Source of the DNA: a virus
Virus record (IMG/VR): IMGVR_UViG_3300031857_012457
Location: 124,001 to 188,000 of that record
DNA: 64,000 bases
Strand: one strand, 5' to 3'
Below, piece by piece: positions 5-28,597 of the stretch (position 1 is the stretch's first letter; each line of letters begins with the position of its first letter). A program made the position numbers and the translations under genes. The notes beneath the pieces were generated by a model that was not told the origin of the DNA, made no database searches, and was given only the letters and a program-made list of their open reading frames with translations.

Positions 5-673
5 TTAGTTTTTTATTAATTCTGAATGATTCAACTCTCGTAACTTATTTTCTAATGCCAATTTACGTTCTAACAATGCTTCAATTGCATCGTAAGCACC
101 TTCAATATCAGTTTTTAAATCAGATTTTACTTTTTCAATGTCAATATCCCATTGCCATTTACTAAATGTACCATCTTCATTAACCATTTCAATTTGTTGC
201 GTTACACTATCCAACGCTTCTTCTAATTGTGATTTAGTATCTCTAACAAAATCCAATTTATTTAATGTTATTCTATAATCTTCATAAAAAGGCCAACTAC
301 CATCTTCTCGTAATGATTGTTCTATTTTCCTCATACAAGTTACACAATACCCAGTTCTAACAATTAATTTTTTATCTGCACTACTGTATTGTATTGTTCC
401 ACAATTTTCAGAAGAACAAGTTGTTATTTTTTTCAAATACTCTCTGGCATCATCTAATTTAGTGGCATTGATTTTGAAACCTTCTTTTTGTTCCCATTCG
501 ATACCATTTTCATCTACCCAAATTTCGCCAACTTCTCGTTTTGTTTCATCTGCCTTTTCATAACCAAACACATTTTGATTATCATCAGTTCTACCAAAAA
601 CCGTATCAATAATTAATTGACGGGATTTGTGTATGTGTTTATTTTTTTCGTCAAAACTTTTTCTTTTTGCCAT
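5..673 (-). CDS. Hypothetical protein with a CX4C/CX2C zinc-ribbon-like pattern
   Basis: A 222-residue protein of unknown function. The visible feature is a four-cysteine arrangement, C86/C91 and C110/C113 (CX4C, 18 residues, CX2C), of the type that often binds zinc. A charged, helix-rich C-terminal half (about residues 135-220) looks able to form a coiled coil. The N-terminus is very basic and lysine-rich, consistent with nucleic-acid contact but not proof of it. The start is the first ATG after a short AT-rich gap that follows the giant upstream gene. No Shine-Dalgarno sequence is present. Zinc binding is an inference from cysteine spacing only. Confidence 0.7.
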   Translation of the reverse strand: MAKRKSFDEKNKHIHKSRQLIIDTVFGRTDDNQNVFGYEKADETKREVGEIWVDENGIEWEQKEGFKINATKLDDAREYLKKITTCSSENCGTIQYSSADKKLIVRTGYCVTCMRKIEQSLREDGSWPFYEDYRITLNKLDFVRDTKSQLEEALDSVTQQIEMVNEDGTFSKWQWDIDIEKVKSDLKTDIEGAYDAIEALLERKLALENKLRELNHSELIKN

Positions 674-718: not shown

Positions 719-3700
719 TTATTCGTAAAATATACCTAATATCTGATTTAGTGGTGCAAATGTGCCTGTAAGTTTGTATGTATTACCCTTATACACAAAC
801 ACTATACCTTCATTAGGAACTATCTTACCCTTACCACCAATACTAGCTAATCTACTTAATTCCATTTTTAATTTAGCTATTTTAGATACATCACCACTAC
901 CTCTTACTTTTTCCGCAGTAGATTCCAATCTGTTTTTCATATCGGCAACTGCTGCATTTGGATTTGCAGTTAAAACTGAACTCATAAACGAAAGAACATC
1001 GGCACCAACTCCCAAAAATATCTCTTCAAATTGTCTAACATTTTCTTTTTGTTGCTTTACTACATTTACTTTATCATTATCCATTGCCCACTTTTGAGCT
1101 TCCTTATCTACAATTGCATTTAAACGGAATGATTTATCACCAAACGCCCATCTCTTTATTAATGCATCTCTTTCAAATTTCTCTAATTTAACTTTTGATT
1201 TATCTATAAAATTAGACCACCATGCTTGATGATATTCGGAAACACCATCGTTGTTAGATAATTGAAATTCAGATTGTAATTTTTGTAATTTACTTAAATA
1301 CTTACCTTGCTTTGAACTCAAATTTTCATTTTTAGGAAGTTGTGTAACAGGAGGTCCTTGTATAGTATATTTAGATTGAACATCCGCATTCACTTGCTTA
1401 ATCATCCCTGCCAATTTAGTTGCTGCAGATTGGTCAGCAGAAACTGCTTTACCACTTTCATCATAACAAGTTGTGTTATGAAATACCAATAAAGCCTGTC
1501 CGTAAGGAATAACATTTACAGAAGTTGGCCATATTACTTCCAAATTCATAAAACAATGTCCTTCATTAAATATTTTCTTTCGTTGTGGTTCCGAAAGAGA
1601 TTGGATTGCCGCTGATAAATCTTTCATTGCAAAATTATATGCATCGGTTAATCCACCTCTACCACTAAATTTAGATGCAACATCTTCAATTCCCATTGCG
1701 TTTGCTCCACCATTTGCCAAATGTCCTTTGTTTCTTGCTGCAATCAATCTACCATTCTTCCAGCTAATTGCTAATGCCTGTCCATCGGTTTTTTCTCTTG
1801 TCAATTCTAACTCACCAGTCAATGCTCCTGTGATTATATTTTTTAAATCACCAAAAGTTAAATCCATATCATCAAATGGGTGAGACATGTGACCGTATGC
1901 ACCACCTTCAGTTAAAATCGTTTCATTTGTCTTTTTTTTTAAGTTTCTTTTTTGAAGAACTAATTTATTTAATTCTGAAAATAAATCAGCAATATCTTTA
2001 TCCAATTTTTTTTCATCAGCTGACATTGGGGATTCAATATCTACATTGGAATAAAGTTTTTTCTTTTTAGCAATTAAAGCATCTACTTTTTTAAGTAAAT
2101 CATTCTTTGCCGTATCTAAATCTTTTATTATATCTTCCGTTGATGATTCGTTTAGCTTAACCCCCGCATAATCTAATCTATATTCATAATACGCCTTTTT
2201 AATATCAGCAGGAATCTTTGAATTTTTAGTGAATATTTGGTCTACCATCTTACGAGTATCATTTGATGATAGATTCCATTTTAACTTATTTTTATCTAAT
2301 GTAAAGAAAGTATTTAAAGTAAAATCTATCTTACTCAACATTGGTTTCAAAATTTCATTTTCAAAAAATGAATCGTATTCCTTTCGCTGCTCTCTCTCTA
2401 AATAATTAAGAGCGAAGTTCCCATCATACAAATACGCTTTTAATGCTTTTCCAACCATCACCAACACATACTTTTTATCGTTAGGACCTAAATACTTTTC
2501 ATCGGAATTACCAATCACATATGTGTACTGATTACCTACCAAGTCCTTTAATTTTACTTCGTTTAATTTACCGGTATCCGTTTTAAAGAATGGACCTCTT
2601 CTTACACTTCTAAAATCTAAACTCATTTCGTTTCCAAAAATCTCTTTCGGTGCAAGTACTTTTACTCTAATAGTTCCATTTTTGTTATCTACACCTATTG
2701 TTTCAAAATCAATTTCGGAGTATTTTTTACCTTTAAATCCTAAATTTTTACCAGTAATAAACTTATGAACTTTACCACTACTAACTGCCTGTGCTTCACT
2801 TACAGGTTCATATCCATTATCTTCGGTATCTTTTATATTGGGTTGATGTCCTGGCTGTCTTTTTCTATTATCATCAAAATCTACAGTATCTAATTCAGCT
2901 GATTGCCCAATATCGTTCTTGTGATTGTTTGTAAAATCTTTTACGGCTTGAGATATAGATTCACCACGTGGTATTCTAAATGTTGTTGCCTTCTTACCAT
3001 TGATTGTAGGCATTCCGTGGTCATCTTTACCAATATCTTTAACGGTAACTCTTTTATTTTTAAACTTACCCATTAAAACCTCATCACCCTTATCAACATC
3101 TACATTAATATCTTCTTTGACAAAATCAGTTTCAACATATTCTACACTTGGTAAGTTTTTTATAGTATATTTTATAGTTCTTTCTTCCGCATCATCATCA
3201 CCAAATATAGCATCTGCTTTTGGAAAATCGGTTTGAGTGTATCCACCATTCGCATACCAGGATTCAGGTCTATCGGAATCTAATTTTCTTTTTTTACCTT
3301 TTTTAATAAATGAACCATCTGGAACATCTGCGGTATTTGCAGTTCCAACATTACTAACCTCTGTGTAAATTTGTTTGTTGATTCTACCATATTCTCTCAT
3401 AAGAATACCTGCTACGGCATGTGCTTGGTTTTCAACTGGCGAACCATCTGCCCCATCTTTAACTTCGTTTCGTATAAACCCCAACTCATCTTGTTTTCTA
3501 TGAACCATTTCATGTGCAAGTGTTCTCAATATATCCGCAGTTAATCTACCTTCAGTTGCAACATATATTGATTTACTAATCGGGTCATATCCACCCAACG
3601 ATGTTTTGGCTTCTGCAAATTTTCTACCACCAACTAAAGTTATTTTTGGAGTTTCTTTTAATTTTAATCGTTTAGTTGCAAACTCTACAAAATTTTGAAT

Positions 3701-5914
3701 AGATTGTTGTTTTGTTTCTGAAAGATTTTCTTTCATCAAATCCGAAGCATTAGCCATAGATTGATTTTTAGTTCCTTCTTTTTTATATCTAGCAATCGTT
3801 TGTATTAATTGTTCATCGGATAGTTTATAGTTTTGCATTATTTCTAATGTTTTTTCTATAAAGTTTGGTACAAATTTTTTCGTATCAAATCCTTCTTCTC
3901 CCTTTTTATTTTCAAATATACCAGCTACTCCCAATGCAATACCACCTGCAGAAGCTTGTGCCGCATTAGCACCTAAAGCTTCAAACGCAGAGTGTTTTAT
4001 TATGTCTTTAACTATGTAAGACCCCAAATGACCTCCACCAAATTTAGCTGCTATTTTTGCTCCGGCTGCTTGTGCAATACCACTAGCACTAGCACCTTTT
4101 GATGCTGCAGATATGCCACCCATTAAACCACCTGTCGTTGCAATTGAACCCATTATTATTGCGGAAGTTTTTACAAAATTTCCAAGACCCTTTTTTTGTT
4201 TTTGACTTTCATTCCAAGACTTTTCTGCTAATTCCCGTTGTTCTGGAGTTAAATCTTTTCTATATACAGGTTCTTTTTTTGTTTTTGGTTTTCCTAATAT
4301 AGTTTTAGCCTGTATAGGATTACCATTTTCATCTTTAATCGGATGTCCATGCTTATCTTCTTTGTAAACAGGAACATCTTTCATTTTAGGTTTTACTTTT
4401 CCTTGAAAATCTAGTTTACGAGTTGTTGAATCTGGTTCTGTAAAATCATCCCAATGTTTAGTTTTACCTTCTGAATCTTTAACAGCCCCAAATCTTCCAG
4501 TAGTTGCCAATGATTTTATAGCACTAGCAGTTCCCACCAGCATTTCTTTGTTATGCTTGAATGTATGCATAATACCATGCCCTACATACGATGCTGCTTT
4601 TTTTAGTATATTCATAGCCCCTTTTCTTTCTTCAGATTGTGGGTTATTTGCTTTATCAATTGATTCGTTATCTCCTTTTGATAAACCTTTTCTGGCATCA
4701 GTTACTTGTTGACTTGTTTCCGCATCTTTCTTTTCTTTATCAGATTTTTCAGCAGACGCTTTTAATTCAGAACCACTTAATTTTTGAGGTGATGTAGGCG
4801 GTGGCGGAGGTGGTGGTGGTGGCGGTTTTGGGACACCTTGTTTTTGTTTCGTTGCATCCACCTTACCTTGTGCAGTAGCTCCCTTATTTACAGGTTGTCC
4901 AGGTTGTGATGGTTTTGGTTGATTTGCAGGTGCATCCGATGGTCCCTGTGCCATTCCTTTTTTCTTAACTGCATCAGCTTCAGCAGGAGTTAGGGTTCTG
5001 ATTTTACCATCTTCAGATTTATGACTCGCAGGTTGTCCTTCTTTACCATAGTATCCACCACCCAAATGTTTCAATCCCATTTTTTCGGCTTCGGATTCTT
5101 CTTTGAAATATGTTCTGGTAAATTCTTCGAACATTTCTTCCATTGCAACTCTACCAATTATTTCTGCAATTGGATTATATAATTCGTCCGTTGGATGTTC
5201 AATTTGATGTCGAGTAGGATGTGGTTCGGGTCTCATTTCATACGATGGCTTCGTATTATTAGTCTCATCTACTGAACCCGTTGGTGCTCCATTAATATAT
5301 CCTCCTGGAAGATTTAATCCAGTTCCTATACCGCCTGGAAACCCATTTTCATTTAATTTACCTGTTATCATACCGAATACCTCTTTATCAAATTTTGGAT
5401 ATGCTTTTAAAAATCCCTTTTTCTTTTCATCATCACTTCCCTTACCTAACCAATTACGAACATCTGTTCCACTAATTGGGTTTGGTTCGGCGGGAACGGC
5501 ATATACATATCCAATTTCATCGTATCCGTATCCAGCTTTTTCGTTATATGGTTTAAAGTATTTACCCGCTAATCTATCTGCATCCTTTTCTCCAACTGCT
5601 GCTACATACGCAGTAGTTTTACCATCAAATTGAGATAATATTTCTTTTGGAGCATACGGATTACGAACTTGAACTATCTTATCTTCCGGTATTCCAAACA
5701 TTGTAGTAATTATTTTCACCTTCTCATTAAAATTAAAAGGAGATTTAGGACCTGATGTATCATTGGATGTTCCAATATATACATTTGATTTTCCAAATTT
5801 TTGAGCAAGCTTTAAATAAGAAACATAATGTCCCTTATGGAATGGTTGAAAACGACCTGAATATACTACTATGGTCCTTTTTACTATCGGTTTATCTTTT
5901 TCGTTCAAATTCAT
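719..5914 (-). CDS. Giant multidomain protein: NMNAT-like nucleotidyltransferase, HExxH peptidase-like segment, KxDG ligase-like domain
   Basis: A 1731-residue protein. The N-terminus is a nicotinamide-nucleotide-adenylyltransferase-type domain, with GRFQPFHKGH at about residues 20-29 and ISGTDVR near 147-153. These match the HxGH and SxTxxR nucleotide-binding motifs of the cytidylyltransferase superfamily. A low-complexity linker with a ten-proline run lies near 361-375. Ala/Gly-rich hydrophobic stretches at about 585-670 could contact membrane. A zinc-metallopeptidase signature HEMVH sits at H801-H805. The C-terminus has the covalent nucleotidyltransferase (ligase) signature KTDG with K1375, then a FMNLEVI motif-III-like segment, NEGIVF (motif IV) and YKLTG (motif V) close to the end. 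NAD synthesis, self-processing and RNA or DNA end joining are possible roles, but none is proven. The domain combination is not one I recognise. The start is the only ATG before the nucleotide-binding motif. Confidence 0.85.
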   Translation of the reverse strand: MNLNEKDKPIVKRTIVVYSGRFQPFHKGHYVSYLKLAQKFGKSNVYIGTSNDTSGPKSPFNFNEKVKIITTMFGIPEDKIVQVRNPYAPKEILSQFDGKTTAYVAAVGEKDADRLAGKYFKPYNEKAGYGYDEIGYVYAVPAEPNPISGTDVRNWLGKGSDDEKKKGFLKAYPKFDKEVFGMITGKLNENGFPGGIGTGLNLPGGYINGAPTGSVDETNNTKPSYEMRPEPHPTRHQIEHPTDELYNPIAEIIGRVAMEEMFEEFTRTYFKEESEAEKMGLKHLGGGYYGKEGQPASHKSEDGKIRTLTPAEADAVKKKGMAQGPSDAPANQPKPSQPGQPVNKGATAQGKVDATKQKQGVPKPPPPPPPPPPTSPQKLSGSELKASAEKSDKEKKDAETSQQVTDARKGLSKGDNESIDKANNPQSEERKGAMNILKKAASYVGHGIMHTFKHNKEMLVGTASAIKSLATTGRFGAVKDSEGKTKHWDDFTEPDSTTRKLDFQGKVKPKMKDVPVYKEDKHGHPIKDENGNPIQAKTILGKPKTKKEPVYRKDLTPEQRELAEKSWNESQKQKKGLGNFVKTSAIIMGSIATTGGLMGGISAASKGASASGIAQAAGAKIAAKFGGGHLGSYIVKDIIKHSAFEALGANAAQASAGGIALGVAGIFENKKGEEGFDTKKFVPNFIEKTLEIMQNYKLSDEQLIQTIARYKKEGTKNQSMANASDLMKENLSETKQQSIQNFVEFATKRLKLKETPKITLVGGRKFAEAKTSLGGYDPISKSIYVATEGRLTADILRTLAHEMVHRKQDELGFIRNEVKDGADGSPVENQAHAVAGILMREYGRINKQIYTEVSNVGTANTADVPDGSFIKKGKKRKLDSDRPESWYANGGYTQTDFPKADAIFGDDDAEERTIKYTIKNLPSVEYVETDFVKEDINVDVDKGDEVLMGKFKNKRVTVKDIGKDDHGMPTINGKKATTFRIPRGESISQAVKDFTNNHKNDIGQSAELDTVDFDDNRKRQPGHQPNIKDTEDNGYEPVSEAQAVSSGKVHKFITGKNLGFKGKKYSEIDFETIGVDNKNGTIRVKVLAPKEIFGNEMSLDFRSVRRGPFFKTDTGKLNEVKLKDLVGNQYTYVIGNSDEKYLGPNDKKYVLVMVGKALKAYLYDGNFALNYLEREQRKEYDSFFENEILKPMLSKIDFTLNTFFTLDKNKLKWNLSSNDTRKMVDQIFTKNSKIPADIKKAYYEYRLDYAGVKLNESSTEDIIKDLDTAKNDLLKKVDALIAKKKKLYSNVDIESPMSADEKKLDKDIADLFSELNKLVLQKRNLKKKTNETILTEGGAYGHMSHPFDDMDLTFGDLKNIITGALTGELELTREKTDGQALAISWKNGRLIAARNKGHLANGGANAMGIEDVASKFSGRGGLTDAYNFAMKDLSAAIQSLSEPQRKKIFNEGHCFMNLEVIWPTSVNVIPYGQALLVFHNTTCYDESGKAVSADQSAATKLAGMIKQVNADVQSKYTIQGPPVTQLPKNENLSSKQGKYLSKLQKLQSEFQLSNNDGVSEYHQAWWSNFIDKSKVKLEKFERDALIKRWAFGDKSFRLNAIVDKEAQKWAMDNDKVNVVKQQKENVRQFEEIFLGVGADVLSFMSSVLTANPNAAVADMKNRLESTAEKVRGSGDVSKIAKLKMELSRLASIGGKGKIVPNEGIVFVYKGNTYKLTGTFAPLNQILGIFYE

Positions 5915-7578: not shown

Positions 7579-8121
7579 TTAGTTTTCGTAGTATAATGCA
7601 GGCCATTCAACAATAATATGAACCCCTCCTTCATTATACGCATTTGTGTATATCTTATAAATATCGTTTGGATTTTTTAATTCCCAAATTTTTGTAAATT
7701 GTAATATAGATTTGAATTCTTGTGTATAATCGTTTCTATGTTGAATGCCTGGGTCTAATGGATTGGTGCTTCCTACACCTACTCTAATTATAATATTTGC
7801 ATTTTTACCAGTCATGTTTTCAAACTTATCAGCATGATTTATTAACTGATTTGCCGCAGATACTAAAAAATCCCATCGTGGATAGAATGATATAACGGTT
7901 TTTCCTGTAATTGCCAATCCTAAACTGATTCCCATTTGAGTTTCTTCCATAACAGGTAGCTCAATCATTTTTTCTTTTGGTACTTCCGTTAAGGTTGTAC
8001 TCATTGGATTTCCAGCATAAACTATTTGTTGTCCAATGAAGATTGTATCTTCTTTTTGGGCAAGAAATGTCATTGCTTTGGATAATTCATCTTTATACGG
8101 AGATGTTTGTGGAGTACTCAT
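7579..8121 (-). CDS. Pyrimidine-binding half of a split thiamine-diphosphate enzyme (E1 beta / transketolase central domain-like)
   Basis: A 180-residue protein with the fold pattern of the Pyr domain of transketolase and 2-oxoacid dehydrogenase E1 beta. E59, in the context PVMEETQMGISLGLAITG, sits where these enzymes place the glutamate that activates the thiamine aminopyrimidine ring (glutamate plus five residues to glycine). SFYPRWDFL and the following helix also fit. It lacks the C-terminal transketolase domain of full E1 beta (normally about 325 residues). The matching ThDP/phosphate-binding half is encoded about 9 kb upstream in the same transcription direction. Such minimal two-chain enzymes occur among sulfopyruvate decarboxylases and transketolase-like proteins. 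Likely role: two-carbon transfer or decarboxylation in making an unusual sugar. Confidence 0.75.
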   Translation of the reverse strand: MSTPQTSPYKDELSKAMTFLAQKEDTIFIGQQIVYAGNPMSTTLTEVPKEKMIELPVMEETQMGISLGLAITGKTVISFYPRWDFLVSAANQLINHADKFENMTGKNANIIIRVGVGSTNPLDPGIQHRNDYTQEFKSILQFTKIWELKNPNDIYKIYTNAYNEGGVHIIVEWPALYYEN

Positions 8122-17007: not shown

Positions 17008-17637
17008 TTAAAATACTACCCATTTACCACTTCCGTAGTGCGGATACTTTGATTTATATTTGTAGTGAATTACATCGGATGGAATATCTTTCTTTTTATT
17101 CCAAGTTGCTTCCGTTGGTGTGTAAGTTGAAACATCATTATCTTCAACTATAAAATGTAAAGGTAAATCAAAATTTCTAGCGTATTTATGAACTTCATAG
17201 AATATACCACTCTCAAAACTCATATCTCCTATAAATACCCAAACCTTTTCATCACTACCTTTGGCCTTAATTCCCATTGCTACACCCAATGCAATAGAAA
17301 GAGTTCCACCTACAATTGCGGATGAATAAAACTTCTCATCTATCTTACAAAGAGTTATAGATTTACCATCAAGTATTTCATCGGTAATCCATTGTGGAGA
17401 TATTCCTTTTAATAAAGCATGGTAGTGAGACCTCCAAGTTGAAAACACCCAATCGTTTTTAGATATTCTTTTGAATACCTCTATTAGTTGTTCTTCATTT
17501 CCGTTTGATAAGTGAATTGGTCCTCTGATTTTACCATCTTCCCAGTTTTGAACTATATCATTCTCAAACTGAATGAGTTCTTCTGCATTCCAATTATGTT
17601 CTCTAACTATTGGATATTGTTCTAAATTTTGTATCAT
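17008..17637 (-). CDS. ThDP/phosphate-binding half of a split thiamine-diphosphate enzyme (E1 alpha / transketolase N-terminal-like)
   Basis: A 209-residue protein holding the ThDP-binding domain. G137-D138 followed 29 residues later by N167 (GDMSFESG...EDND) reproduces the GDX(about 27)N cofactor motif that binds Mg-diphosphate. STWRSHYHALLKG (66-78) matches the conserved active-site loop of E1 alpha, and SIALGVAMGIK (114-124) the preceding helix. The chain is far shorter than a full E1 alpha (about 330-400) and contains only the core domain. Its Pyr-domain partner is the 180-residue protein at 7.6-8.1 kb. It overlaps the RmlC-like gene by 4 bases. Likely acts in carbon-carbon bond chemistry for a modified sugar. 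Confidence 0.8.
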   Translation of the reverse strand: MIQNLEQYPIVREHNWNAEELIQFENDIVQNWEDGKIRGPIHLSNGNEEQLIEVFKRISKNDWVFSTWRSHYHALLKGISPQWITDEILDGKSITLCKIDEKFYSSAIVGGTLSIALGVAMGIKAKGSDEKVWVFIGDMSFESGIFYEVHKYARNFDLPLHFIVEDNDVSTYTPTEATWNKKKDIPSDVIHYKYKSKYPHYGSGKWVVF

Positions 17638-26043: not shown

Positions 26044-26892
26044 TTATATAGATATAATTTTTTTAAATAATTGTTTCCATTTTGAGTATCCTGAATAATG
26101 ATAAGTTGGTGATAATTCGAATCCAAATCTCACATCATCCAATGGTAATTTAAATCTAAATTTTGCCAATTCTCTATACATTTTTCGATATTCTTCTGAA
26201 TATGAGTAATCTTTATTTATGTTTGCAACTGCTCTAATTCTTTCTCCACAAGTACTATCCCATTTAAAATGATGTACTTGCACACTGCATTTGTTAATTG
26301 GTGCAATCAGTGGATGATTCCAACCTTGCCATTTCCAAGTAGTATGTCCGTCTATTTTTGCATAATGCTGTCCGTTTGTAATTTCAACATACCCCTTTGC
26401 TATACAAATTTTATTAGGATTAGCACCACTTAACGGAAATCTAAAAAATCCTGCGTATGGAAACTTTTCAAATATGTCATCCGTATCTAATAATTCAACA
26501 AATTCACCATCCTCTCCAATTCTATCTATAAATCCACCTCTTACCATTTCCCATCCATTTACATCACAATTTGATGTGATACTTCGTAATGAATCCGAAT
26601 AGACATGGAACTCATCATCATCGGATATTACCCACCAATCGTTTGGATGAGTTGATTTTACTTCATTGTAAAGTCTTGTTACCTTTTCCCAATTATACTT
26701 CTCTTCAATTACCGTTTTTACAATTTTAGCATTTGGAAATTGAGATACTATGGTTTTAACTTCTGATAAATTAGATTGCTCTTCCCAATCATATACAACA
26801 ATATACATTTCATCCACTTTATCTTTGTAGTGGTTTAACATATGTTTTAATGTTGTTGTTCTAGAACCTGTTACCGTAACTAATCTAATCAT
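26044..26892 (-). CDS. GT-A type glycosyltransferase-like protein
   Basis: A 282-residue protein. The N-terminal strand-loop (MIRLVTVTGSRTTTLKHMLNHY) and the acidic motif WWVISDDDEFHVY (86-98) are the nucleotide-sugar- and metal-binding landmarks of GT-A glycosyltransferases. Later residues (TWKWQGWNHPLI, VQVHHFKWD) resemble acceptor-site segments of GT2-like proteins. No membrane segment is visible, so it would act in the cytoplasm on a soluble or protein-linked acceptor. It overlaps the methyltransferase-like gene upstream by 4 bases. Confidence 0.65.
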   Translation of the reverse strand: MIRLVTVTGSRTTTLKHMLNHYKDKVDEMYIVVYDWEEQSNLSEVKTIVSQFPNAKIVKTVIEEKYNWEKVTRLYNEVKSTHPNDWWVISDDDEFHVYSDSLRSITSNCDVNGWEMVRGGFIDRIGEDGEFVELLDTDDIFEKFPYAGFFRFPLSGANPNKICIAKGYVEITNGQHYAKIDGHTTWKWQGWNHPLIAPINKCSVQVHHFKWDSTCGERIRAVANINKDYSYSEEYRKMYRELAKFRFKLPLDDVRFGFELSPTYHYSGYSKWKQLFKKIISI

Positions 26893-27647
26893 TTTCTTTT
26901 AACTAATGTTAATCCAGTTGATGATGGTTTATTTTTTACTATTCCAAAATTGAATAAATCAAATGTTTCCCACTTTGGATTATCTTTAAGTTCTTTAGCA
27001 AATGTAATTGGTCCATGCCAATCATCAAAATCACCTCTATCTTTTACTTCGTTTGTAACAATGTAACTATCTGCATAATTAGGGTCCGTATCGTGGATAG
27101 AAATGATACCATTTGGAGAAAGTAACTGCGAATATAGTTCAAAATCCTCTTTTACATTCTCATAACTATGACCAGCATCTATATGTAAATAATCTATCTG
27201 AATATCATTAAGAATAAAGTAATTATGAAAAGCGTCTTCTGTTGTTTTATTAATAATTCGTGGATGAAATGTTCTTCTGAAAAATGATTCTTCTCTAAAC
27301 CAATTTACATGTCCACCAATACCGTTCATAGCATCAACAACATAAGTAACACCAATATCTCCCCAATTTAAATCAGAATTTCCTTCAAAAATGCCTTGTT
27401 TATGTAAATCGTAACGAGCCTGTGTCATTAATCTAGGTACAAATCCTCCACCTGAACCTAAACATACACAAGTTTTTGCTCTCATATACTGAATAAGAGA
27501 ATAGATTATTAAACCATCTCCTAAATGATTATCAGTTGCTCCATGTGACCATCTATACGGAACTGGAACTTCTTCTTGCTCCTGATATTCGTTATATTCT
27601 AAATTGTTTGTTAGATAATTCTTTAAGTATTGTAAATCTTGTAGCAT
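26889..27647 (-). CDS. Class I SAM-dependent methyltransferase-like protein
   Basis: A 252-residue protein with CLGSGGGFVPRLM (62-74) as glycine-rich SAM-binding motif I and YLHIDAGHSYENVKED (153-168) as an Asp/His-containing motif. LSPNGIISIHDTDP (176-189) completes the pattern seen in Methyltransf_24-type enzymes that methylate sugars or small molecules. In a glycan island an O-methylated sugar is a reasonable product. The gene starts a new block: the 62 bases upstream carry a weak Bacteroidota-like promoter, and it overlaps the downstream glycosyltransferase by 4 bases. Confidence 0.75.
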   Translation of the reverse strand: MLQDLQYLKNYLTNNLEYNEYQEQEEVPVPYRWSHGATDNHLGDGLIIYSLIQYMRAKTCVCLGSGGGFVPRLMTQARYDLHKQGIFEGNSDLNWGDIGVTYVVDAMNGIGGHVNWFREESFFRRTFHPRIINKTTEDAFHNYFILNDIQIDYLHIDAGHSYENVKEDFELYSQLLSPNGIISIHDTDPNYADSYIVTNEVKDRGDFDDWHGPITFAKELKDNPKWETFDLFNFGIVKNKPSSTGLTLVKRK

Positions 27648-27675
27648 TAGATTAGTTGATAAAGTAAAGTGAATA

Positions 27676-27705
27676 CAATATACTAAAAAAAATCTAAATT
27701 TACAA
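27676..27705 (-). promoter_or_regulatory. Weak Bacteroidota-type promoter before the methyltransferase gene
   Basis: On the minus strand TTG (27703-27705) is followed after 20 bases by TATATTG (27676-27682), which approximates the -33 TTG and -7 TAnnTTTG elements of Bacteroidota sigma factors with an imperfect -7. Both this site and the better one before the primase begin TTGTAAAT. It would give a leader of about 24 bases. Confidence 0.35.
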
Positions 27706-27709
27706 CACT

Positions 27710-28597
27710 TTATTCATTTATTTTAGTATGATATTTTTCTACATCATCTTTAATTTTTGGCCATAGGAAATTTGTAAAGAAATCAATTGATTGTTCTTTT
27801 GATGGATGAAACCAACCACCCAACATTGTTTGATTTTTGTTGGCAAAGTATTCCAATATACCACCTCCAAATCCTTTTATCCTAACATCATCGGTAAATA
27901 TAAATTTATCAAAATCAATTTTTTCTAATAGTTCTGGTATTATATCTGCTTCAAACCAAGAATTTTCAAATGGTTCTAATTTATCAAATAAACTTTCTGT
28001 TTTTAATGTAGCGTAATTTCCTGTATCCACATCAGCTCTTTTTTGAAGATTATATAATTTGTCTACCGCAACATCCATTTGAAACAAATTACCAATTGTA
28101 ATCATTTTATATGGTATATTTTTTTCTTTAAAATACTGTTGAGTGTGATATATACTTTCTAATGTTTGTAATATAGCACCATATATTGAATAATAATTTT
28201 CAAAAAATTCTTTCCCATACCCAAATATATCAGTTCCATTTAACATATAGTTTATTTTACCAATTCTTTCAGGATGCATACTCATTCTTGGAAAATTTTT
28301 TGCTCTATCTTCGTTTACAAATACAGGATAATCCCATCTATCGATTGTAGACCATTGAACTATTGCATAATCTACATTCGAGTGTGGTTTAGTTGGATTT
28401 TTGTAATGTGGTGAATTTAAAAATCTGAATACCTTTCTTCGCATTATATCATTTCCAGAACCACCACATGCTGCATTATACACATCAAACGGGTCTGATG
28501 TTTTTTTTGGATTAAATAAGGAATATCCTTCCATTTCAAACCCAATAGGCCAGTTTTCATCTCCTGCAGTAAAAGAGCATCCGTTTATTAATATCAT
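27710..28597 (-). CDS. SGNH-hydrolase-like protein (GCSFT type), copy 3
   Basis: A 295-residue protein starting MILINGCSFTAGD (S8 as the predicted nucleophile) with CGGSGNDIMRR as the second SGNH block and GGWFHPSKEQSIDFF near the end in the position of the catalytic histidine. It is a diverged third paralog of the SGNH pair at 10.2-12.0 kb, displaced about 16 kb along the same island. It overlaps the upstream glycosyltransferase-like gene by 4 bases. Likely an esterase or acyltransferase acting on sugars; activity untested. Confidence 0.65.
   Translation of the reverse strand: MILINGCSFTAGDENWPIGFEMEGYSLFNPKKTSDPFDVYNAACGGSGNDIMRRKVFRFLNSPHYKNPTKPHSNVDYAIVQWSTIDRWDYPVFVNEDRAKNFPRMSMHPERIGKINYMLNGTDIFGYGKEFFENYYSIYGAILQTLESIYHTQQYFKEKNIPYKMITIGNLFQMDVAVDKLYNLQKRADVDTGNYATLKTESLFDKLEPFENSWFEADIIPELLEKIDFDKFIFTDDVRIKGFGGGILEYFANKNQTMLGGWFHPSKEQSIDFFTNFLWPKIKDDVEKYHTKINE

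Follow-up and report, generated by a model that had tools for sequence, protein, structure and literature searches.

A 1731-residue protein of a T4-superfamily phage joins NadM-like, metallopeptidase-like and predicted RNA-ligase-like domains and may be a head-packaged polyprotein

Background

Can a single viral gene encode two enzymes that handle AMP or NAD (nicotinamide adenine dinucleotide) on either side of a protease-like centre and, if so, how would such a protein be put to use? The question is raised by a 1731-residue open reading frame (ORF) at positions 719-5914 of a 64,000-nucleotide stretch of viral DNA (positions 124,001 to 188,000 of IMG/VR record IMGVR_UViG_3300031857_012457, a record of 201,940 bases; "the window" hereafter means the whole 64,000-nucleotide stretch). 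A preliminary description, made from the letters alone, had proposed that this ORF joins an NMNAT-type (nicotinamide mononucleotide (NMN) adenylyltransferase-type) domain, an HExxH segment and a KxDG ligase-like domain, and had offered three readings, i.e., a self-processing polyprotein, a protein injected with the DNA, or an NAD-linked nucleic-acid repair machine. The analyses reported here indicate that the architecture is real but not ordinary, and that it probably adds a variant, one domain family of which is unnamed, to the multi-enzyme proteins packaged in phage heads. We consider it fairly probable that a phage of the T4 superfamily makes this polyprotein late and targets it to the capsid, where the prohead protease would cut it, and that the products would leave the head together with the DNA.

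Results

The minus strand of the window at 719-5914 holds a single ORF with an ATG start, in which a NadM-like nucleotidylyltransferase domain is followed by a putative metallopeptidase (HExxH plus a downstream Glu) and then by a C-terminal domain that we designate after its KTDG motif (all window coordinates of this protein given below are on the minus strand). Relatives were assembled as a near set (276 relatives among 280 IMG/VR stretches) and, with a broader IMG/VR query, as a marine set (at least 580 of 600 stretches confirmed as relatives), with 80 loci retained in each. When the near set was filtered for complete ORFs >1200 amino acids (aa) holding the NMNAT and HPFDD motifs, 42 ORFs passed, which together with the window protein represented 36 distinct sequences of 1294-1933 aa; HExxHRKQ, EN[QKN]A[HN] and EKTDG were present in all 36, although these motifs were outside the filter criteria. 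The three-part layout of the preliminary description is thus borne out, as are its motif positions, i.e., GRFQPFHKGH at residues 20-29 (5828-5857), ISGTDVR at residues 147-153 (5456-5476), HEMVH at residues 801-805 (3500-3514) and EKTDG at residues 1374-1378 (1781-1795), the last of which makes the numbering of K1375 correct. Matches to Pfam and PHROG 395 as well as the predicted folds of the KTDG and zincin parts indicate that the layout goes beyond chance. One complete-looking ORF of 936 aa (L037) was without the NMNAT motif. A search of the open-access literature found no publication of this architecture and, beyond the cyanophage NMNATs described below, none that links these enzymes to virions; PADLOC gave no match.

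The N-terminal domain (approx. residues 12-189; 5348-5914) passed the Pfam cut-off for PF01467 (CTP_transf_like; 24.3 bits against a cut-off of 21) and matched PHROG 395 ("cytidyltransferase"; E 2e-12), while its top sequence match in the PDB was the NMN adenylyltransferase 2qjt (7.7e-5). NMN adenylyltransferases also led the NCBIfam list; every listed equivalog was far below its cut-off (TIGR01527, 27.7 bits against 181.2), and the status of a NadM equivalog was not reached. The HxGH and ISxTxxR motifs were found in 36 of 36 distinct full-length relatives, and the named phage relatives of the domain, fusions apart, were NadM/Nudix proteins; no Nudix domain was matched in the window protein. 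Because the Pfam, PHROG 395 and PDB matches, the leading NCBIfam entries, the phage relatives and the two motifs agree, the domain is, as judged from sequence matches, a NadM-type nucleotidylyltransferase of the HIGH superfamily, and the NMNAT-type assignment of the preliminary description is upheld to that extent. Residues 270-330 gave one BLASTP match to phage S-SCSM1 (E 4e-4); a module common to both proteins is not claimed, since a hidden Markov model (HMM) failed to find it. Two further small ORFs with HxGH-type starts were observed elsewhere in the record (G000), one with a PF01467 match over the cut-off at 48.3 bits (G000:24426-24905) and one with no Pfam match (G000:188914-189279).

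No family in Pfam, NCBIfam or PHROG scored above its cut-off with the KTDG domain (residues 1337-1731; 722-1906). An AlphaFold model built from 42 sequences had a predicted local distance difference test score (pLDDT) of 85.5 and a predicted template modelling score (pTM) of 0.82, and a Foldseek search of the PDB with this model placed RNA ligases at ranks 1 to 20 (E 0.009 to 0.4). In a VIA-align comparison the first 37 of 50 rows were RNA or DNA ligases with Z from 8.6 to 5.9, of which values below 8 may reflect a common arrangement; the best row was the Naegleria RNA ligase 6vt3 (Z 8.6, root-mean-square deviation 4.2, 188 residues), and T4 Rnl1 reached Z 8.1. Twelve residues were invariant in 19 diverse members, namely E38, K39, D41, G42, R58, E123, E366, G367, V369, K378, T380 and N387 in domain numbering, and they fall on what we take to be motifs I, Ia, III, IV and V. 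As regular expressions for motifs III to V failed on 19 to 24 of 161 sequences, alignments were used for these motifs. Motif I (EKxDG) was present in 161 of 161 relatives and invariant in the 19 diverse members; the motif set of covalent nucleotidyltransferases (KxDG, motif III Glu, motif IV EGxV) was present and invariant in both the 42 and the 19 sequences. Motifs IV and V, for which the preliminary description had noted similar segments toward the C-terminus, correspond to EGIVF (residues 1702-1706) and YKLTG (residues 1713-1717; together 764-811), whose E, G, K and T are invariant in the 42 and 19 sequences. The C-terminal fold search, which had been set beforehand as a test that could refute the proposal, did not do so, and we predict an RNA-ligase-like covalent nucleotidyltransferase fold from the model.

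At the profile level, hhalign comparisons with the single T4 Rnl1 and Rnl2 sequences gave 0.2% and 1.1%, and the RNA ligase profiles PF09511 and PF09414 had no match at E 1 in the record, which may be incomplete. A PDB sequence search with the KTDG profile returned ribosomal eS6 (E 0.0015) and unrelated chains, which were judged to be compositional chance.

Between the two nucleotidyltransferase-type domains lie a polyproline linker (residues 364-370 plus a few; 4805-4825), a Gly/Ala-rich hydrophobic helical stretch (approx. residues 580-670; 3905-4177), in keeping with the hydrophobic stretches of the preliminary description, and a gluzincin-like metallopeptidase domain (approx. residues 731-850; 3365-3724). 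HEMVH and E828 (i.e., H801, E802, H805 and E828) were invariant in 26 of 26 non-redundant relatives. The model of residues 420-860 had a mean pLDDT of 73.2 and a pTM of 0.52; its confidence was low to middling in the hydrophobic stretch, which precedes the zincin and was confidently modelled only in part. Fold matches of the zincin part (Z 7.5 to 4.7) included 6mdx, M1 aminopeptidase, minigluzincins, PprI, ArdC and IrrE, and were led by 6mdx (Z 7.5, 102 residues), the PDB title of which is that of a DPC repair protease and which is presumably SprT. Foldseek on the same model returned no useful match, all E-values being >4. The HExxH motif, the downstream Glu and the modelled fold are those expected of a gluzincin-type metallopeptidase. 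A small module follows (approx. residues 940-985, GDEVLMGKFKNKR...TINGKKATTFR; 2960-3097), for which HMM matches were found in the marine relatives L155 (8e-25), L111 (5e-21), L142 (6e-13) and L097 (4e-9).

The KTDG domain also occurs alone, paired and in other fusions. On L184, a 410-kb contig binned as Firmicutes, a stand-alone KTDG gene starts with MKSLIQYISE, followed later by LQPILE/GG (a slash marks the boundary here and below); an S77 protease gene lies approx. 1.2 kb past it (44.5 bits), a Gp23 gene also follows (102.9 bits), and a gene with GRFQPFTQGH is present on the same contig. L184 further shows a run of small genes (L184:1438-9565) with near-identical leaders (MKSI..YI.E and the like) ahead of the S77 protease and Gp23 genes, which by its sequence pattern is a candidate battery of head-packaged proteins. 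In L185 a single protein of 649 aa contains both NMNAT and KTDG parts, separated by a leader-like MSLRDYVFE, the NMNAT part scoring 19.3 bits, just below the Pfam cut-off of 21. The stand-alone KTDG protein of L005 starts with MKFLKSYEEFLNENLILE/GG (seen by eye, outside the pattern count given below). In the marine fusions L142, L155 and L111 a Zeta_toxin/AAA_33 P-loop domain precedes the NMNAT and KTDG domains, and in L142 polynucleotide kinase PHROG 505 matched (E 8e-5); no AAA_33 profile match was found in the 201,940-bp record, which may be incomplete. LR756508 carries an extra ParB-like N-terminus, for which ParB_N was below cut-off and PHROG matches were stronger. Overall, ligase-like KxDG and NMNAT-like enzymes occur as neighbours or fusions, in several orders, by head genes and often behind leaders.

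The T4 prohead protease gp21 cleaves after L/I-x-E, and T4 internal proteins are targeted to the head by short leaders (PMC9026906, PMC5694885); T4 Alt is trimmed by gp21 at ITE-6 and LTE-619, losing six N-terminal residues (PMC5694885). Similar short stretches were found at the N-terminus and at domain boundaries of the window protein and its relatives. The protein starts with MNLNE (residues 1-5; 5900-5914), a possible short LxE-ended leader; most relatives have MN[LI]xE with varying length and letters, [LIV]xE being present at the protein start in 34 and the Glu in all 36 of the full-length relatives. KLNE stands at residues 186-189 after the NMNAT domain, with a KLNE-type site in 26 of 26 aligned sequences. 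At the KTDG boundary, before GGAYGH, the window protein has ILTE/GG (residues 1333-1338; 1901-1918), a possible prohead-protease site, and among 161 relatives compared 132 have [LI]xE/GG and one has LMLE/GG. In a test of 720 patterns for conserved sites in 26 non-redundant sequences, [LI]xE tied for first place in the variable linkers, with 4 sites. The [LI]xE boundaries are candidate sites for an S77 (gp21-type) prohead protease.

T4 ipII and ipIII start with MKTYQEFIAE. A leader pattern of this kind fitted 14 of 25 non-overlapping ORFs of L184, the stand-alone KTDG gene included, although strict [LI]xE was not present in every one of the 14; elsewhere it fitted 7 of 205 ORFs of the record that holds the window, 4 of 15 in L185, 1 of 18 in L003, 0 of 17 in L004 and 1 of 23 in L005. 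Among marine relatives, the leader M[DN]KLTxFLxKPFLxE or a similar one was present by pattern in 19 of 26 complete ORFs; the count reaches 24 of 26 when L107 (by eye) and four ORFs with possible Val-codon starts are added, L130 and L134 remaining doubtful.

The KTDG gene is followed by a gene of 222 aa with a CxxC pattern (5-673, minus strand), which serves as a synteny marker: the two genes stand side by side at all 80 near loci and at 60 of the 80 marine ones. The terminase gene terL was present at 79 of the 80 near loci, including all 56 that extend 4 kb or more downstream; the corresponding marine counts are 78 of 80 and 46 of 46. Three proteins encoded in the record score over their Pfam cut-offs, namely Peptidase_S77 (103.2 bits; cut-off 27), Gp23 (258.1 bits) and a terminase of T4 type (33.6 bits; cut-off 22), and the phage therefore belongs to the T4 superfamily. 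The KTDG domain was found in 3 of 50,697 phage records (Microcystis phage Mel-JY01, on which no paper was found in the open-access literature, and two uncultured phages). Mel-JY01 is the single named isolate in which NMNAT and KTDG are fused, and its boundary reads IIAE/GG. When bacterial and archaeal genomes were scanned, 9 of 80 stretches were KTDG relatives, all on metagenome-assembled contigs; of these, at least the contigs that carry S77, Gp23, portal or terminase genes close by belong to phages.

Several other features of the record were observed. Approx. 25 kb of epimerase-, glycosyltransferase-, SGNH- and radical-SAM-like genes (by eye) lie between tail and head genes at window positions 5929-30868, including two ORFs (7579-8121 and 17008-17637) that by eye resemble separate parts of a thiamine-diphosphate enzyme. 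A head-cluster gene (G000:116571-118244) has a DUF3008-type start, MPAVSKAQQ[KR]FMGMVHA, and the same start occurs in an S-SCSM1 gene annotated as a virion protein (L250:31627-31836). GroEL- and GroES-like ORFs were seen by eye in G000 (26494-28113 and 65409-65714), and no tRNA genes were found in the whole record.

Cyanophages offer a comparison for the NMNAT-like part. The S-SCSM1 NMNAT (ORF91) was detected in virions by mass spectrometry (PMC9602691), and virion NMNATs are also cited for S-CBWM1 and S-CREM2 (PMC9602691, PMC10665884). The S-SCSM1 gene starts with MKSFLQFLKE, matches PHROG 395 and sits among the virion-annotated genes 89, 90, 92 and 93. S-SCSM1 ORF91 and S-CREM2 ORF154 resemble the N-terminal domain of the window protein in PHROG 395 membership, reported detection by mass spectrometry and, for S-SCSM1, the T4-like leader; they differ from it in being separate genes of approx. 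400 aa without a fused KTDG or zincin domain.

A BFVD fold search with the KTDG model listed 14 viral proteins with E no higher than 0.001, followed by RNA ligases; the viral matches were fusions, uncharacterised phage proteins and a 591-aa cytidyltransferase-like protein of S-PM2 (E 1e-3, TM 0.35), the first part of which is in the S-PM2 record DUF6267 (PF19782; 217.7 bits) with KWDG. DUF6267 (KWDG) stands immediately before the cytidyltransferase gene in S-PM2, P-HM1 and S-RIM2, and in an IMG/VR copy of 591 aa (L254) both are in one ORF; for S-PM2 (L251:2255-5791), RefSeq shows two genes where the 590-591-aa copies have one. DUF6267 relatives were found in 471 of 50,697 phage records, and no mention of DUF6267 was found in the open-access literature. 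DUF6267 is like the KTDG domain in its KWDG, its EGxV, the H-x-x-H start and the adjoining or fused cytidyltransferase, and unlike it in giving no profile match by hhalign (0.3%, E 0.22); the KTDG HMM on S-PM2 proteins gave a best E of 0.03. Because the profile comparison fails, common descent of KTDG and DUF6267 is treated as a lead, the kinship being only suggested.

Discussion

What the analyses show directly is how the domains are arranged, which folds are predicted for them, that their catalytic residues do not vary, where the gene lies, that an S77 protease is encoded in the record and how the [LI]xE motif is distributed. From these observations we infer packaging, cleavage and ejection of the window protein as well as its substrates and function. 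The simplest account of the fusions and pairings is that head-targeted enzymes became fused, with prohead-protease sites as joints. The polyprotein would be made together with the terminase and head genes and would go into the prohead core, where the S77 protease would cleave after [LI]xE, at least at residue 5, E189 and E1336 and possibly also near E733. All three enzymes (NMNAT-like, zincin and RNA-ligase-like KTDG) would then be carried into the host with the DNA. There the KTDG enzyme may self-adenylylate on K1375 and close breaks in RNA or in some other nucleic acid, NAD-type dinucleotides may be remade by the NMNAT-like enzyme, and the zincin may cut a host or defence protein. By analogy with what PMC5512222, PMC9503650 and PMC7824862 report on polyvalent proteins and on NAD and RNA repair, counter-defence would be a likely use.

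The three readings of the preliminary description fare differently, and its interpretation is partly supported. Injection with the DNA is the reading that agrees best with the head-gene neighbourhood, the leaders, the [LI]xE boundaries and the PHROG 395 NMNATs reported from virions. Self-processing appears half right, in that the polyprotein would be cut, with the S77 prohead protease rather than the internal zincin as the likelier cutter. The presence of two nucleotidyltransferase-type domains, and of a polynucleotide-kinase-like one in marine forms, agrees with an NAD-linked repair machine, the activity of which is predicted from sequence.

A number of results weigh against a packaged, protease-cut set of NAD- and RNA-handling enzymes. 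The candidate leader of the window protein is just 5 residues long, and 28 of 161 relatives have LLLM/GG, with Met for Glu, at the KTDG boundary. Counted along the entire chain, [LI]xE occurs 12 times as compared to 14.4 expected, a lack of enrichment that makes its total number no evidence; two other patterns have 8 conserved sites overall as compared to 7 for [LI]xE, and one pattern ties with it in the linkers. The loose leader pattern was undiscriminating on S-SCSM1 genes (2 of 8 virion-annotated vs 9 of 57 others), and the authors of PMC9602691 and PMC10665884 allow that the NMNATs in virions may be carry-over. With regard to the enzymes, no Foldseek match of the KTDG model in the PDB reached E 0.001 or better, and motif V departs from K-x-K, with K1714-L-T1716 in the window protein and K-x-T invariant in the 19 diverse members. 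The KTDG profile matched Rnl2 weakly (9.2%, E 0.0036) and the Rnl1 alignment weakly (0.6%, E 0.1). By the same measure Rnl1 against Rnl2, an established pair, gave 12.1% (E 0.0024), and controls without any relationship gave 1.3% (E 0.042); the similarity to Rnl2 is suggestive, not proof. Finally, the window protein shares HxGH and ISxTxxR with NadM-type NMN adenylyltransferases and phage NAD salvage (NadV/NadM), but unlike these it falls below the NCBIfam equivalog cut-offs and is without a Nudix match, and no match to the NadV profile (PF04095) was found in the 201,940-bp record, which may be incomplete.

With respect to the KTDG domain itself, there is a real but lesser chance that it is a covalent nucleotidyltransferase other than a ligase, which would cap RNA or adenylylate a protein or another acceptor. 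The domain shares KxDG, the motif Ia Arg, the motif III Glu, EGxV and the motif V Lys with Rnl1, Rnl2, Rnl5 and tRNA ligase, and differs from them in the Thr that replaces the second motif V Lys and in a large helical insertion of approx. 170 residues ahead of motif IV, both of which favour a non-ligase, as does the presence of capping enzymes lower in the VIA-align list (Z approx. 5); the RNA and DNA ligases in the first 37 of its 50 rows argue for the ligase-like assignment.

It is unlikely that the protein is a late intracellular enzyme that is not packaged at all, supplying NAD and repairing RNA during infection, with an incidental position by the head genes. Packaging of a 1731-aa protein is reasoned from its context, and virion detection of the NMNAT relatives is possibly carry-over, which leaves room for such an enzyme; the leaders, the synteny with terminase and prohead genes, and the virion annotation of the genes flanking the S-SCSM1 NMNAT speak for packaging.

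We regard it as quite unlikely that the internal zincin, and not the prohead protease, cuts the chain, in the manner proposed for P1 DdrB with its metallopeptidase (MPTase) domain. Iyer et al. 2017 (PMC5512222) suggest that polyvalent proteins cleave themselves through domains of this type, and the HExxH...E site looks intact and is invariant in 26 of 26 relatives. On the other hand, HExxH was not found in 80 marine relatives scanned (some of which are fragments), yet NMNAT, KTDG and the same boundary are kept there; the [LI]xE boundaries match the gp21 motif, and since stand-alone zincin genes are present in S-SRM01 and B23, the zincin need not act in cis.

It is improbable that the N-terminal domain is a cytidylyltransferase or handles sugar nucleotides on behalf of the sugar genes next to it, in which case the fusion would concern surface glycans: the gene does adjoin the approx. 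25 kb of epimerase-, glycosyltransferase- and radical-SAM-like genes described above, but NMN adenylyltransferases lead the PDB and NCBIfam matches, albeit far below the NCBIfam cut-offs, and the conserved flank in relatives is the terminase side. A sequencing or assembly artefact joining separate genes, which the preliminary description had allowed for and for which no supporting point was found, has a negligible probability, because the 36 distinct full-length sequences come from other contigs and samples and rule out a chimera.

The packaged, prohead-protease-cut polyprotein that we prefer has two known counterparts. T4 Alt and IPI-III resemble it in lying among head genes, in having a few N-terminal residues that end with [LI]xE and in coming from a genome that encodes an S77 protease; unlike them, the window protein has other enzymes, with several domains per chain and candidate sites between them, and its packaging is deduced. 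Polyvalent proteins (PMC5512222) are likewise large multidomain phage proteins with a zincin-like MPTase domain, and the window protein, with its NMNAT, zincin and KTDG domains, agrees with them in having several effector-type domains in one polypeptide; the gp21-type processing route proposed here sets it apart. The main text of PMC5512222 uses NMNAT or adenylyltransferase 0 times and ligase 3 times, and because of these word counts the combination of the three enzymes is seemingly not described in that text.

A much wider proposal, which we put forward tentatively and hold to be rather doubtful in its entirety, is that an entire superfamily of T4-type phages pre-loads its heads with a cleavable first-aid kit for NAD and RNA. 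The kit would consist of the NMNAT-like enzyme and a new virion-borne family with an RNA-ligase fold (KTDG, with DUF6267 as its cyanophage counterpart), joined in marine forms also to a polynucleotide-kinase-like domain. Each enzyme would once have been a separate head protein with its own leader, the capsid protease would free the enzymes in the head, and they would act before phage expression, undoing the NAD depletion and the RNA or tRNA cleavage brought about by host defences.

Conclusions

Enzymes that are packaged in the head and ejected are already known from T4 Alt and the polyvalent proteins, while the NMNATs of cyanophage virions have so far been without an explanation of how they enter; the KTDG fusions suggest a route, i.e., leaders and prohead-protease joints. 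The unnamed ligase-like domain is common among T4-like viruses sampled from the environment (at least 580 IMG/VR stretches) and occurs in 3 of 50,697 phage records, and the NMNAT and ligase-like domains may be linked to DUF6267, which has relatives in 471 phage records. If the proposed reading is true, repair of NAD and RNA would begin before the phage makes any protein, with ready-made tools at the first moment of infection, an idea that is directly testable on isolates.

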